DNA of 64,000 bases from Georgenia sp. M64. GTDB taxonomy: Bacteria > Actinomycetota > Actinomycetes > Actinomycetales > Actinomycetaceae. Below, piece after piece: positions 25,382-33,050 of this stretch. Where the stretch lies: contig NZ_CP145809.1 of NCBI RefSeq assembly GCF_038049925.1, forward strand, positions 2,108,001 through 2,172,000, read 5' to 3'. Every line of letters starts with the position of its first letter. Position 1 is the first letter of the stretch. A model generated the notes under the pieces. The model was not told the DNA's origin, did no database searches, and saw nothing but the letters and a program-made list of their open reading frames with translations. The position numbers and the translations under genes are program-made.

Positions 25382-25498
25382 GCCCGGCCGCCCGCCGTCC
25401 GGTTCCGGTTGCGGCGCGCCCGCCCGGCCCTAGCATCACAGTTCTCACGTGAGCGCGCCGGGGCGGCCGGCCACCTCGTGGACCGGACAGGGGGACCC

Positions 25499-26140
25499 GT
25501 GGCTTCGACCACTCGTGCAGGTGACGACGTCCCACCTCGGCGGCGCCGCTCGCCCGTCGGGGCGCTGCTGGGGTTCCTCATCGGGGTCGTGGTGACCACC
25601 GTCGTCGCCGTGGTCCTGCTCGGCATCGGCGTGGCCGGCGTGGGTGACGCCGAGGAGGCGATGGGCCCGACGCCGACGCCGACGCCGACAGCCGACCCGA
25701 CGCCGCGCCAGGAGGGCGCGTCCGGTCCCGTGCCGGCCGCCTGCCTGGAGGCCGCGGAGTACAACCAGACGCTCAACGAGGCCCTGGACGAGATCGCCGT
25801 CGGCGTCCGCGACCAGGACGCACGCACGCTGCAGGAGGCGCTGGACGCCGTGCAGGACGCCCGGCCTGGCTCGGAGGCGGCGTCGCAGGAGTGCCAGGAC
25901 CTCGCCGGGACCGACGGCGCCACGGATGAGGCCACGGCCGGGACCACCGGCGAGGAGACGGCCGGCACCACCGACGAGGAGACGGTCGGGACCACCGACG
26001 ACGAGACGGCCGGGACCACCGACGACGAGACGGCCGGGACCACCGACACGGAGACGGCCTCCGACGGCGCCGGCACGACCGGCGACAGGGAGAGCACCGC
26101 GGGCGCCACCGCCGAGCCGACCGACTCCGCGACGCGATGA
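25499..26140 (+). CDS. membrane-anchored low-complexity protein
   Basis: About 213 aa from the GTG at 25499, which has CAGGGGGA upstream. A basic N-terminus (PPRRRRSPVGALL) precedes one transmembrane helix (GFLIGVVVTTVVAVVLLGIG). Then come a TPTPTPTADPTP linker, a short helical domain with two Cys (ACLEAAEYNQTLNE, SQECQDLAG) and an acidic Thr-rich tail with AGTTDDET repeats. It overlaps the MMPL gene by ATGA. It may be an extracytoplasmic partner of that transporter, but this rests on position only. Confidence 0.7.
   Translation: MASTTRAGDDVPPRRRRSPVGALLGFLIGVVVTTVVAVVLLGIGVAGVGDAEEAMGPTPTPTPTADPTPRQEGASGPVPAACLEAAEYNQTLNEALDEIAVGVRDQDARTLQEALDAVQDARPGSEAASQECQDLAGTDGATDEATAGTTGEETAGTTDEETVGTTDDETAGTTDDETAGTTDTETASDGAGTTGDRESTAGATAEPTDSATR
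25934..26053 (+). repeat. 24-bp tandem repeat, 5 copies, coding TAGTTDDE
   Basis: Five in-frame 24-bp units (consensus ACGGCCGGGACCACCGACGA plus CGAG) encode the acidic C-terminal tail of the membrane-anchored protein. Confidence 0.85.
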
Positions 26141-28383
26141 GCGAGCCGAGCAGGGTCGCCCGGCGCCGGGGCCTCGCGGAGCGCCTGTGGTACGGCTACG
26201 CGCGACTCATCGTCGCGCTGCGCTGGTTCGTCATCGTCGGGTGGGTGGCGGCGGCGGCCGCGGCGATGATCCTGCTCCCACCCCTGGGGACCACCGCCGA
26301 CGACCTCGAGGCCCTGGGCGCCGACGACGCCAGCTTCGCCGCCGAGAAGCGCTCCGTCGAGCTCTTCGGCTTCCCGCTCCTCAGCCGGGTGGCGATGGTC
26401 CAGCACGACCCGGCCGGGATGACGACCCTCGCGCAGGCCGAGGGCGTCCTGCGCGGCATCGCCGTCAACCAGGACGCCTACGACACCGCGCTCCTCGGCG
26501 CCATCCCGATCCCGAACGCCGGTGGCGCGTTCCCCGGCGCCCAGGAGGAGGACACCGCCGTCATCACGTTCCTCTTCGCCGAGCCCACCGCCAGCTTCTT
26601 CGAGCAGACCGACGTCGCGAAGCAGTTCGCCGAGGACCAGCTCACCGATGCCGAGGACGCGTACGTGGGTGTGACGGGCTCGATGCCGGCCCGCGCCGCG
26701 CAGGGCCGCGTCGTCAACGCGTACGTGCCCGTGGTCGAGCTGACCACCCTCCTCGCCGTCCTCACCGTCGTCGCGCTCACGTTCCGCTCGCTCGCGGCGC
26801 CCGCCGTCACGCTCGTCTCGGTCGGTGCGGCGGTCGGGTTGACGATGGGCGTCGCCGGCTCGGTCGCGGAGGCCCTGGACTTCTCCGTCCCGGCGGACCT
26901 GCGCCCGCTCATCGTGGCGCTGCTGCTCGGCGTGGTGACCGACTACTGCATCTTCTACCTCTCGGGCCTGCGGGCCCGGCTCGCCGAGGGCCACGACCGG
27001 CTCGAGGCCGCTCGGCTGGCGACCGCGTCGTTCACCCCGATCGTCACCGTCGCGGGCCTCACGGTCGCCGCCGGGACCGCCTCGCTCGTCGTCGCCGGGT
27101 CGGCGCTCTTCAGCGGCTTCGGGCCCGGGCTGGCCGTCACCGTGCTCACCGGGGTGGTGGTGGCGATCACCCTCGTCCCGGCGATCCTCGCGGTGCTCGG
27201 CCCGCGCGCGTTCTGGCCGAGCGACATCCGCCTCGCGCTCGAGCGCGAGGCCGGCCGCCAGCGCTCCTCCGCCCTGACGTCGACCGTGACGCACCGCGGC
27301 TCCGCCGTCGTCGTGGCCGCCCTGTGCATCGCGGGGCTCGGCCTCGCCGCCTCCCAGGTGCGCCACATGGACCTCGGCCTCGGGTTCGTCCAGTCGCTGC
27401 CCGCCGACAGCGAGGTCGCGCGCGCCGCGGAGGCCGCCGGCGAGGGTTTCGCGCCCGGGATCGTCTCCCCCACCGAGCTGCTCGTCGAGGGCGACGGCGT
27501 GGGCGAGGACGAGGAAGCGGTTTCCCGTCTCGGCGAGGCGCTGCAGGCGCAGCCGGGCGTGGCCGGGGTCCTCGGTCCCGGTGACTCCGCCGCCGCGGAC
27601 GACCTCGGCGTGCTCGTCGCCGAGAGCGGCGACGCCGTGCGCTACCTCGTCGTCCTCGACACGACGCCGCTCGAGGCCACCGCGATCGACAACCTCCGCG
27701 GTCTGCGCGAGAGCATGCCGGAGCTGACCGCCGAGGCCGGGCTCGACGGCGTCACGACCAGTCTCGCCGGCGACACCGCGCTCGCCGACGGGATCGTCAA
27801 GGACACGACCGACGACCTCCTGCGCATCAGCGTCGCCGCGCTGGCCGTCAACCTCCTCATGCTCGTGATCTTCCTCAGGGCGCTCGTCGCGCCCCTGTAC
27901 CTCCTCGCCTCGAGCGTCCTCGCCCTCGGCGCCACCCTCGGCATCACCGTCATGGTCTTCCAGGGGGTGCTCGGGCACGACGACCTCACCTTCTACGTGC
28001 CCTTCGCCGCCGCCGTGCTCCTGCTGTCCCTCGGCTCGGACTACAACATCTTCGCGGTGGGACGGGTCTGGCAGCTCGCCCGCGACCGCTCCCTGCGCGA
28101 CGCGATGCTCGCCGGGGTCCCCCAGTCCACCCGCGCCATCACGGCTGCCGGCCTGGCCCTTGCCTCCAGCTTCGGGCTCCTCGCCCTGGTGCCGCTGCGC
28201 CCGTTCCGCGAGCTGGGGTTCGTGCTCGCGGTGGGGATCCTCATCGACGTGTTCGTCGTGCGGGCGCTGCTGGTGCCGTCGCTGCTGACCATCGTCGGCA
28301 CGGTGAGCAGCTGGCCGTCGAGGCGCCTGCGGCGACGGGAGCCGCAGACGTCGGCGGCGGCGCCACCCGCGCGGGAGAGGTAG
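26137..28383 (+). CDS. MMPL/RND-family transporter
   Basis: 748-aa membrane protein with the duplicated RND layout: TM1 (LRWFVIVGWVAAAAAAMI), a periplasmic domain beginning ADDLEALGADDASFAAEK, helices with GVVTDYCIFYLSGLR (about 265-280), a second periplasmic domain, then TM helices with LGSDYNIFAVGRVWQLA (about 630-645). The DY/SDY motifs are the proton-relay residues of MMPL proteins. These export lipids or drugs in actinobacteria; the substrate here is unknown. It is translationally coupled to the anchored protein upstream and followed by a 29-bp repeat and a strong hairpin. Confidence 0.88.
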   Translation: MSEPSRVARRRGLAERLWYGYARLIVALRWFVIVGWVAAAAAAMILLPPLGTTADDLEALGADDASFAAEKRSVELFGFPLLSRVAMVQHDPAGMTTLAQAEGVLRGIAVNQDAYDTALLGAIPIPNAGGAFPGAQEEDTAVITFLFAEPTASFFEQTDVAKQFAEDQLTDAEDAYVGVTGSMPARAAQGRVVNAYVPVVELTTLLAVLTVVALTFRSLAAPAVTLVSVGAAVGLTMGVAGSVAEALDFSVPADLRPLIVALLLGVVTDYCIFYLSGLRARLAEGHDRLEAARLATASFTPIVTVAGLTVAAGTASLVVAGSALFSGFGPGLAVTVLTGVVVAITLVPAILAVLGPRAFWPSDIRLALEREAGRQRSSALTSTVTHRGSAVVVAALCIAGLGLAASQVRHMDLGLGFVQSLPADSEVARAAEAAGEGFAPGIVSPTELLVEGDGVGEDEEAVSRLGEALQAQPGVAGVLGPGDSAAADDLGVLVAESGDAVRYLVVLDTTPLEATAIDNLRGLRESMPELTAEAGLDGVTTSLAGDTALADGIVKDTTDDLLRISVAALAVNLLMLVIFLRALVAPLYLLASSVLALGATLGITVMVFQGVLGHDDLTFYVPFAAAVLLLSLGSDYNIFAVGRVWQLARDRSLRDAMLAGVPQSTRAITAAGLALASSFGLLALVPLRPFRELGFVLAVGILIDVFVVRALLVPSLLTIVGTVSSWPSRRLRRREPQTSAAAPPARER

Positions 28384-28571
28384 CGGACCGCCCGGACCAC
28401 GGCAGGCCGACGTCCGCCACCCGTCCGCGCCGCCATACCGCGGCAGAGCCCGTCGGCGCGGTCATACCGCGGCGGAGCCCGTCGGCGCGGTCATACCGCG
28501 GCGGAGCCGTGCCGGCCCGAGCACTCCGGGCAGCCGGACACGCTCGGCTGAGCCCGTCACCCGGGAGGAAC
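28384..28571. repeat. 29-bp tandem repeat (28434-28513, 2.7 copies) after the MMPL gene
   Basis: Units beginning CATACCGCGGCGGAGCCCG repeat with a 29-bp period at 28434, 28463 and 28492. The unit is not a multiple of three and the stretch is non-coding. Confidence 0.8.
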
Positions 28572-28612
28572 GCAGGAGCCCCGTCGCGCAGCGTGCGCGA
28601 CGGGGCTCCTGC
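28572..28612. terminator. perfect 19-bp stem, terminator of the 27-residue gene
   Basis: GCAGGAGCCCCGTCGCGCA and its exact complement pair around a three-base loop. On the minus strand it starts 13 bases after the stop of the small gene at 28626; it may also terminate the MMPL transcript from the other side. Confidence 0.85.
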
Positions 28613-28625
28613 GTCAGTCCGGCCG

Positions 28626-28709
28626 TCAGAAGATGGAGTACTCGCCCAGGCGGTCGATCTGCTCGACGCTGTGGGCCGTCTCCAGGATCCACTCGAGGTA
28701 CGTGGTCAT
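28626..28709 (-). CDS. 27-residue peptide gene with its own leader and terminator
   Basis: The ATG at 28709 has a GGAGG seven bases upstream. The peptide starts MTTYLEWILETAHS and ends DRLGEYSIF; it is acidic, has no Cys and could form one amphipathic helix. All 26 sense codons after the start end in G or C, which argues strongly for coding. A perfect 19-bp terminator stem follows 13 bases after the TGA, and the leader has several hairpins, one of which (GGTGCC with GGCACC at the ribosome site) could hide the start. I do not recognise the peptide. It could be a microprotein, a regulatory peptide or a precursor peptide; no modification enzyme lies nearby. Confidence 0.6.
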   Translation of the reverse strand: MTTYLEWILETAHSVEQIDRLGEYSIF

Positions 28710-28714
28710 TGGTG

Positions 28715-28805
28715 CCTCCAATCGAGGTGCTCAGCAGGAACGGTTCGAAGAACACGCCCTTGGGCACCCCGACCGGGCTATCACCCGGCAACATCCAGGA
28801 TACGG
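28715..28805 (-). promoter_or_regulatory. structured 5' leader of the small peptide gene
   Basis: Reading the minus strand, GCCGGG-TGATAG-CCCGGT and GTTC-TTC-GAAC can form hairpins, and GGTGCC near 28766-28771 can pair with GGCACC at 28712-28717 next to the ribosome site. TATCCT near 28800 is a possible -10. This resembles a regulatory leader, but I could not match a known riboswitch. Confidence 0.35.
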
Positions 28806-29051
28806 GGCCGGACGTTGATGAGCGGGCGAAGGCCGGGTGACCTTGTTCATGTGCGCGTGTGGTGGAAGACCTGAACATCGGACCAGGTACGCGACGGCAT
28901 GACCCTTGCCAGGCCCTCCGATGAGCTTGCCGGGCCCTCCGATGACTGCGTCGGTGCGGTGCACCGCCGATACCGGCGATCTCGCCGTCGATGCTTGCCG
29001 GGGACGGCGCCACGGAGGACTCTGTAGACCCCGCCCTGGTCGGAGGCATTC

Positions 29052-29618
29052 ATGGGCAAGCTGATCTACGCGGCCAACATCTCGCTCGACGGCTACCTCG
29101 AGGACGAGGCCGGCTCGTTCGACTGGTCCGTGCCGGACGAGGAGGTGCACGCGTTCTGGAACGAGCACGAACGGCACATCGGCACCTCGCTCTACGGCCG
29201 CCGCATGTACGAGACGATGCGCGTCTGGGAGAGCGACGACTGGCTGACCGACGAACCGGACGTCGTCCGCGAGTACGCGCGGATCTGGCGCGACGCCGAC
29301 AAGGTCGTCTACTCCACGACGCTCGCCGAGGTCTCCACGGCGCGGACGAGGATCGAGCGGGCCTTCGACCCCGAGGCGGTACGCCGCCTCAAGGAGACCT
29401 CCGACGCGGACCTGAGCATCGGCGGCGCGACCATCGGGGCCGAGGCGTTCCGTCACGGCCTGGTCGACGAGTGCGTGCTGCTCCTGTGCCCGGTGACCGT
29501 GGGCGGCGGCAAGCCGGCACTGCCCAGGGGCGTCCGACTCGACCTCGAGCTGCTGGACCACCGCCGGTTCCGCAACGGGGTGGTCTACCTGCGCCACGCG
29601 GTACGAAGCGCCACCTGA
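29052..29618 (+). CDS. dihydrofolate-reductase-like (RibD C-terminal) protein
   Basis: 188-aa protein of the RibD-C/DHFR-like superfamily: MGKLIYAANISLDGYLED at the N-terminus, LYGRRMYETMRVWE (about 57-70), KVVYSTTLAEV and the nucleotide-binding DLSIGGATIGAEAF (about 120). Actinobacterial members are probable NADPH-dependent reductases, not true folA. The ATG at 29052 has CGGAGG upstream. It appears monocistronic. The DNA to its right is a probable island remnant, so it marks the end of normal chromosome here. Confidence 0.88.
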   Translation: MGKLIYAANISLDGYLEDEAGSFDWSVPDEEVHAFWNEHERHIGTSLYGRRMYETMRVWESDDWLTDEPDVVREYARIWRDADKVVYSTTLAEVSTARTRIERAFDPEAVRRLKETSDADLSIGGATIGAEAFRHGLVDECVLLLCPVTVGGGKPALPRGVRLDLELLDHRRFRNGVVYLRHAVRSAT

Positions 29619-32480: not shown

Positions 32481-32540
32481 GTGCGGCGCTCGGAGCGCTC
32501 ACGACGGCGTCCAGCGTACCGGCCGCGTTACCGTGGTCGG

Positions 32541-33050
32541 GTGATCCTGCGCCGCGACCGCCGCCTGCCCGAGCCCCTCACCGCCCACCTCGCCCCGCGC
32601 GACGCGCCCCTCGCGTCGGCGGAGCTGGCGGACGGGACGTGGGCCGTCGTCGCCCGGGCGGCCCTCGTCGTGGTCGGGCCCGGCGGCGTCGTCGTCCGCT
32701 CGCCGTGGCACGAGGTCGAGCGCGGCACGTGGGACGGCGACGAGTCGGTCCTCACCGTCACGTGGGTCGACGGCGTCCGCGCCCCGCTCGAGCTGAAGGT
32801 GCAGGACGCACCGAGCGCCGAGCGCTTCACCCGCGCCCTGCGCGAGCGGGTCCAGTCCTCCCTCGTCCACAGCGAGAGCGCCGAGCTGCCCGGCGGGGCC
32901 ATCGTCATGGTTCACATCCGCCGCGACGAGGACGGGGCACTCTTCTCCCAGGTGACCGCCCGCGGCCGCCTGCGAGACGACGCCGAGGAGCGCCGTCTCG
33001 TCGACGAGATGGAACGTCACGCGCGCGCCGCTGTGGGCCTCGCCACATGA
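32541..33050 (+). CDS. conserved hypothetical protein between two tRNA genes
   Basis: 169-aa soluble protein from the GTG at 32541: VILRRDRRLPEPLTAHLAPR, then LADGTWAVVARAALVVVG, VVVRSPWHEVERGTWDGD and a helical charged C-terminus (EERRLVDEMERHARAA). The middle looks like a small beta-rich domain. No catalytic motif is visible and I do not recognise a named family. Start codon is inferred from the GC-rich codon use, because the ribosome site is weak. It is divergent from tRNA-Met and co-directional with tRNA-Asn. Confidence 0.68.
   Translation: MILRRDRRLPEPLTAHLAPRDAPLASAELADGTWAVVARAALVVVGPGGVVVRSPWHEVERGTWDGDESVLTVTWVDGVRAPLELKVQDAPSAERFTRALRERVQSSLVHSESAELPGGAIVMVHIRRDEDGALFSQVTARGRLRDDAEERRLVDEMERHARAAVGLAT

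Follow-up and report, generated by a model that had tools for sequence, protein, structure and literature searches.

A 27-codon transcription unit kept in three Georgenia genomes, a probable microprotein gene that has a promoter and a terminator of its own

Attenuator leader peptides are encoded by a small open reading frame (ORF) that stands beside a terminator hairpin. The locus that we consider here, a 27-codon unit of Georgenia, has the same two parts, but in two of its three known copies no gene on the same strand follows that could be attenuated. A second point of comparison is the set of short ORFs from Mycobacterium tuberculosis detected by Ribo-RET, to which a G/C-skew measure was applied (PMC9094748). 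As that set is described there, its likeness to the Georgenia ORF lies in the short length and in a G/C content that is far higher at codon position 3 than at position 2, while the differences are that ribosome profiling was used for M. tuberculosis and comparative evidence is used here, that no sequence kinship is shown between the two, and that the Georgenia unit carries a conserved promoter box and a terminator hairpin of its own. The third comparison is with GlxR/CRP promoters, for which the consensus is given as TGTGA-N6-TCACA (PMC7999487). Against that consensus, the Georgenia box CATGA-N6-TCAC(C/G) agrees at 7 of 10 positions in each of the three copies, so the match is incomplete, and the centre of the box would lie near -53 from the transcription start that we place downstream of it. 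Among the titles and openings of abstracts listed for Georgenia nothing on this gene was found, and no small-protein or transcriptome study of the genus was among them; the peptide fragment SVEQIDRL was unmatched in the literature.

The window is the whole stretch of DNA that was analysed, 64,000 nucleotides of the genome (G000) of a Georgenia, a soil-type actinobacterium. The original prediction, made from the letters alone, had described a short frame with a GGAGG site, G or C at the end of all 26 later codons and a perfect 19-bp stem 13 bases past the stop, and had taken these together for a complete autonomous transcription unit. The frame, for which that prediction gave no strand, is present on the minus strand, with its ATG at 28709-28707, its TGA at 28628-28626 and the GGAGG (28719-28715) 5 nt before the ATG, and 26 of the 26 codons after the ATG do end in G or C. 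The stem is perfect as described, but it is 21 bp long and begins 11 nt past the stop. The reading as a complete unit stands as well, with the unit kept as a whole in three of nine genomes of the genus and with a strong coding signature. The features are collected in Table 1.

Table 1. Features of the 27-codon unit in the window, in the order of transcription, with their state in the two other copies (G052 and G022).
Feature	Position	Strand	Conservation and remarks
Upstream box CATGAACAAGGTCAC (TGA-N6-TCA dyad), likely transcription-factor site (predicted)	28837..28851	minus	15/15 identical in G052, 14/15 in G022
-10-like element TATCCT (TATCAT in G022)	28797..28802	minus	GTATCCT kept 7/7 (G052), 6/7 (G022)
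Leader hairpin P1 CCGGGTGATAGCCCGG, tentative	28773..28788	minus	5 pairs kept in 3/3, one compensatory change C-G to U-A
Conserved leader block GGTGCCCAAGGGCGTGTTCTTC	28747..28768	minus	22/22 in G052, 20/22 in G022
Possible leader hairpin P2, tentative	28735..28762	minus	lower stem kept in 3/3 with C-G to U-A
Shine-Dalgarno GGAGG	28715..28719	minus	sequence reading; GGAG(G) likewise before the ATG in G052 and G022
27-codon ORF, MTTYLEWILETAHSVEQIDRLGEYSIF plus stop	28626..28709	minus	78% / 70% identical in G052 / G022, 0 indels; G/C by codon position 54/35/100%
Terminator hairpin, 21-bp perfect stem, 3-nt loop	28570..28614	minus	arms 28570-28590 and 28594-28614

How far does the unit reach beyond its own genome? 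Among nine Georgenia genomes, the full set of box, leader block, peptide and terminator hairpin is found in three: G000, G052 and G022. The start, ribosome site, stop and frame are conserved in all three and the ORF is free of indels; the leader and the stretch after the stop carry indels between copies. A search with the peptide through 200 genomes of the family matched nine at E 10, three of which are these real copies. In 297 genomes of the order, a sample whose draw left out G052 and G022, 16 match at E 1 and the own copy alone is credible. In the class sample (394 genomes) 123 match at E 1, the own copy being credible among the matches listed, and in the phylum sample (396 genomes) four match at E 0.01, again with the own copy alone credible; the three weak phylum matches sit inside frames of 334-933 aa. 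Plasmids and phages gave no match to the peptide. The family, order and class samples together hold at least 49 weak loci besides the three copies; 16 of the 49 were scored against the profile, and for seven the DNA was read. Only one of these seven (L010 in G041, MTTTLGWIVDTIRPVFRCDFLGAHQGRP; 46% over 24 residues, E=2.0) has its own start and a short frame, and it is taken as a chance match because the start of a hydrolase-like ORF on the opposite strand overlaps it and G041 has no match at E 0.1 to the RNA model described below. The other six are opposite-strand frames, longer frames, or frames with no start.

Two broader searches give the same picture. A pattern scan of one genome per species across 84,980 species, a design that may leave out the window's own and very near genomes, returned 11 loci. 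The peptide is encoded at just one of them, L056 in Georgenia sp. SYP-B2076, which is the G022 copy itself; unrelated frames account for the remaining ten and for both matches on viral contigs. An RNA model built from the leader and most of the ORF was run on 213 family genomes and matched 33 of them at E 0.1, with the three copies at 161-175 bits and the rest at or below 28.5 bits, which we take as chance; no credible relative is found in the other 210. The gene is best read as a real one, specific to the Georgenia lineage.

We turn to the promoter. Across the copies the 15-bp box reads CATGAACAASGTCAC and is followed in all three by TATC(C/A)T, at a distance of exactly 49 bp, although the 34-nt spacer has diverged at 12 positions between G000 and G052, 23 between G000 and G022 and 22 between G052 and G022. 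A fixed spacing across a diverged spacer is the behaviour expected of a protein site that works together with the promoter. With one mismatch allowed, and the unit's own copy counted, the box occurs at 3, 2 and 3 places in G000, G052 and G022. No recognisable -35 is seen by eye, and a sigma-70 pair scan of 28300-29100 found none. A regulator of the CRP/GlxR-like type is perhaps the candidate for the box, judging by the sequence match.

By composition, the 27-codon ORF is coding. The G/C content at codon positions 1/2/3 is 54/35/100%, 50/39/96% and 50/39/85% in G000, G052 and G022, with position 3 exceeding position 2 at P=1e-7, 6e-6 and 7e-4 respectively (Fisher); the quantity compared is the G/C skew used in PMC9094748. 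Measured against local intergenic trinucleotides, the coding log-odds are +24, +22 and +7 bits, and the other two forward frames are negative in every copy. When 20,000 stop-free frames of 26 codons were generated from a Markov model of local intergenic DNA, none reached the coding score of the G000 ORF, and none had only G/C at third positions.

The pattern of substitution is less one-sided. The original prediction had proposed conservation of the peptide, and a comparison of synonymous with non-synonymous changes, as its own test. The peptide is conserved in two relatives, with pairwise identities of 70-82% (5-8 differences in 27 residues), but between G000 and G052 replacements are as frequent as under random placement: six of the 27 residues differ through nine substitutions, and 53% of the frame-intact trials give as few residue changes (P=0.53). 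For the more distant pairs replacements are somewhat rarer than random (P=0.048 for G052-G022, with 10 nucleotide differences in the ORF, and P=0.117 for G000-G022). As references we used a dS of 0.16-0.17 for G000-G052, from the MMPL gene and a 189-aa gene at 32481-33050, and of 0.53 for G052-G022, from DnaG. The third position takes three of the nine changes between G000 and G052, where about 74% is predicted from MMPL (P=0.013), and four of ten between G052 and G022, where about 60% is predicted from DnaG (P=0.17). At positions 1 and 2, the ORF changes faster than an ordinary protein between G000 and G052 (6/54 vs 33/1496 in MMPL, P=0.002) and at a DnaG-like rate between G052 and G022 (6/54 vs 153/1400, P=1.0); for the latter pair its third positions are, if anything, quieter than those of DnaG (4/27 vs 230/700, P=0.058). 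These tests, which rest on three sequences, are mixed: the frame is kept, and the constraint on residues is probably moderate at most.

What kind of product would the ORF give? Residues 7-21 are invariant across the three copies save residue 13, and the ends of the peptide vary. The net charge is -4, -2 and -1 in the three copies and the mean hydrophobicity is about 0. The helical moment is reached by 6%, 6% and 17% of shuffled sequences, so amphipathicity is not significant. A single-sequence AlphaFold2 run on a 31-residue in-frame stretch gives two short helices, with a mean pLDDT of 78 for the best of five models and 67-77 for the others. Together these properties suggest a soluble helical peptide that may bind some partner. 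That the peptide is unfamiliar, as the original prediction had said, is borne out by the family and structure databases: Pfam and NCBIfam give no match at E 10 to any of the three members scanned, and the best matches to the peptide in PHROGs (E 0.12) and in the PDB (E 0.48) are not credible. The weak PDB matches to a monotreme lactation protein and to CydX span just 13 and 8 residues, and we put them down to chance. Among the roles then offered, that of a microprotein is the best reading. The signal or precursor peptide is not supported: the peptide has no Cys and, by eye, no export signal, and a processing or export gene was seen next to one copy at most.

Past the stop, the G000 hairpin has a folding energy of -47.6 kcal/mol (z -9.73), and the corresponding place holds a hairpin of different sequence in G052 (-42.0 kcal/mol) and another in G022 (-26.1 kcal/mol); in each of the three, 0 of 200 shuffles are as stable. 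There is no U-run at the hairpin, and a scan for U-tail terminators on both strands of 28300-29100 returned nothing. Between the terminator and the MMPL gene, a 31-nt unit CCCGTCCGCGCCGCCATACCGCGGCAGAGCC occurs three times in tandem at 28420-28508, 29 bp apart, the other two copies being 87% identical.

The surroundings of the unit differ among the three genomes. In G000 it lies between a convergent MMPL transporter gene (26137-28383, plus strand) and a divergent RibD_C gene (29052-29618, plus strand). The MMPL gene is on the downstream side in G052 also; it adjoins the unit in G000, and in G052 a GH15 gene and another ORF intervene. This next ORF of G052 (L025:7028-7741, plus strand) and the GH15 gene behind it are both convergent to the unit. 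On the other, upstream side, the neighbours of G000 and G052 differ. The G022 neighbourhood is a different one, with a LANC_like gene upstream and an MFS_2 gene (L026:7714) downstream. Three further observations concern the G000 flanks. The stretch at about 28505-28552 looks, in alignments read by eye, like the 3' end of the ORF that is longer in G052 (L025:7028-7741, 237 aa) and is otherwise missing from G000. Two near-identical 20-nt copies of CTTGCCRGGCCCTCCGATGA, 21 bp apart, lie at 28905-28945 in the gap before the RibD_C gene. At 25409-26140 there is a 243-aa ORF with Thr/Glu-rich repeats (TTDDETAG...), which has a 204-aa counterpart in G052 and no Pfam match.

We now weigh the explanations other than a microprotein gene. 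The transcript of about 220 nt could act by base pairing or protein binding, as a purely regulatory or dual-function RNA with the ORF secondary, and this we regard as rather unlikely, if the most serious of the alternatives. The leader block is nearly invariant, and among the nine genus genomes it occurs without mismatch only in G000, G052 and G022. The consensus fold suggests leader hairpins as well as pairing between leader and ORF; of the 46 pairs that it predicts, 34 form in each of the three sequences and nine have a sequence changed on both sides, and in P2 the upper stem goes from UUC/GAA to CUC/GAG (read by eye). In a 32-pair structure taken from this fold 95.8% of 96 cells pair, and five pairs are changed on both sides, where shuffles average 2.3 and 11 of 500 get as high; as these three sequences also supplied the structure, the test is biased in its favour. 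The spread of ORF substitutions over the codon positions would also suit an RNA. Against this stand the stability of the leader, which is not consistently above that of shuffles (z -2.49, -0.77 and +0.14) and so does not support a strong conserved leader fold, and the absence of P1 from the minimum-energy fold of G022. Rfam gives 18 matches in 28384-29060 at E up to 10 and none that reaches the gathering score. The codon-position G/C is a signature at the level of codons, not predicted for a pure RNA. A more elaborate version is doubtful: the leader as a new structured cis-acting sensor that exposes or hides the ribosome site for one microprotein, or an RNA with two functions, its leader block acting on other messages and its ORF yielding the peptide. 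A mini-ORF in the leader block (VPKGVFF) was rejected, its frame not being kept between copies.

The neighbourhoods bear on the remaining alternatives. A leader peptide with an attenuator would explain a short ORF followed by a terminator hairpin, and in G022 the MFS_2 gene does run in the same direction as the unit, about 300 nt past the hairpin; the downstream gene is, however, convergent in both G000 (MMPL) and G052, which contradicts attenuation in two of three copies, and the peptide has no run of one amino acid and varies at 5-8 of 27 residues, so that we give the idea hardly any credence. Only slightly better placed, and still very improbable, is the precursor of a secreted signal or of a RiPP (a ribosomally made, modified peptide). 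The LANC_like gene that suggests it has its end about 280 bp upstream of the unit in G022, but LANC_like matches occur in at least eight of the nine genus genomes, seven of them over the cut-off. Every one of the six genomes without the peptide is among the eight, and five of these six pass the cut-off. The counts are lower bounds because the gene next to the G022 unit is missing from the genome search, and for the same reason the lack of a match in G052 is uncertain. The match in G000 lies 2 Mb from the unit, and neither Cys nor a leader motif is apparent in the peptide by eye. The gene is a neighbour at the G022 copy only, so a LanC link is rejected, with the reservation that the search missed this very gene, and the LANC_like neighbour is read as incidental. 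Its own assignment (L026:5786-7000) is a weak Pfam match, 3.5e-7 and 29.6 bits. A young or decaying gene, translated under little selection and of little or no use, would account for the fast replacement between G000 and G052 and for the presence in just three of nine genomes, and yet promoter geometry, Shine-Dalgarno, frame and terminator hairpin are all kept across a DnaG dS of 0.53; we hold it to be improbable. In DnaG trees of all nine genus genomes, G000 and G052 are sisters (100). For G022 the three versions of the tree give support values of 41, 44 and 36, and one version puts it next to G000/G052. Because these trees do not place G022, inheritance with losses and transfer are both possible.

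Our preferred explanation, which we consider probable though well short of assured, is that of a real, lineage-specific Georgenia gene, a regulated monocistronic unit for an acidic, probably helical microprotein that docks on a cytoplasmic partner. What counts for a gene is that the whole unit is conserved although the immediate neighbour genes differ among the three genomes; what counts against it is that just three copies are known, that replacement between G000 and G052 is fast, that third positions are not favoured and that the CRP-like match is just 7/10. From the parts of the unit we infer a course of events that runs from the transcription start, activation and the identity of the regulator to translation, cytoplasmic location and partner binding. 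A dimeric regulator, perhaps of the CRP/GlxR type, would bind the TGA-N6-TCA box, whose centre would lie some 53 bp ahead of the start, and would activate a promoter that has a good -10 and a poor -35. The resulting monocistronic transcript, some 220 nt in all and some 82 nt of it leader, would end at the long hairpin. Ribosomes would start at the GGAGG. Their 27-residue product would be acidic and mostly helical, would carry no export signal, and would most likely work by docking either a single amphipathic helix or a short hairpin of helices on a protein partner in the cytoplasm.

Most likely, then, the locus is a gene for a microprotein, and it has a regulated promoter and a terminator to itself. 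As a kind of gene it is ordinary; its sequence is new. No searched family model matches the peptide, so annotation is likely to miss the gene. In a gene of only 27 codons, every part of a transcription unit is visible and conserved in three species, which would make it a good test object for whether minimal orphan genes work through their proteins, their RNAs or both.
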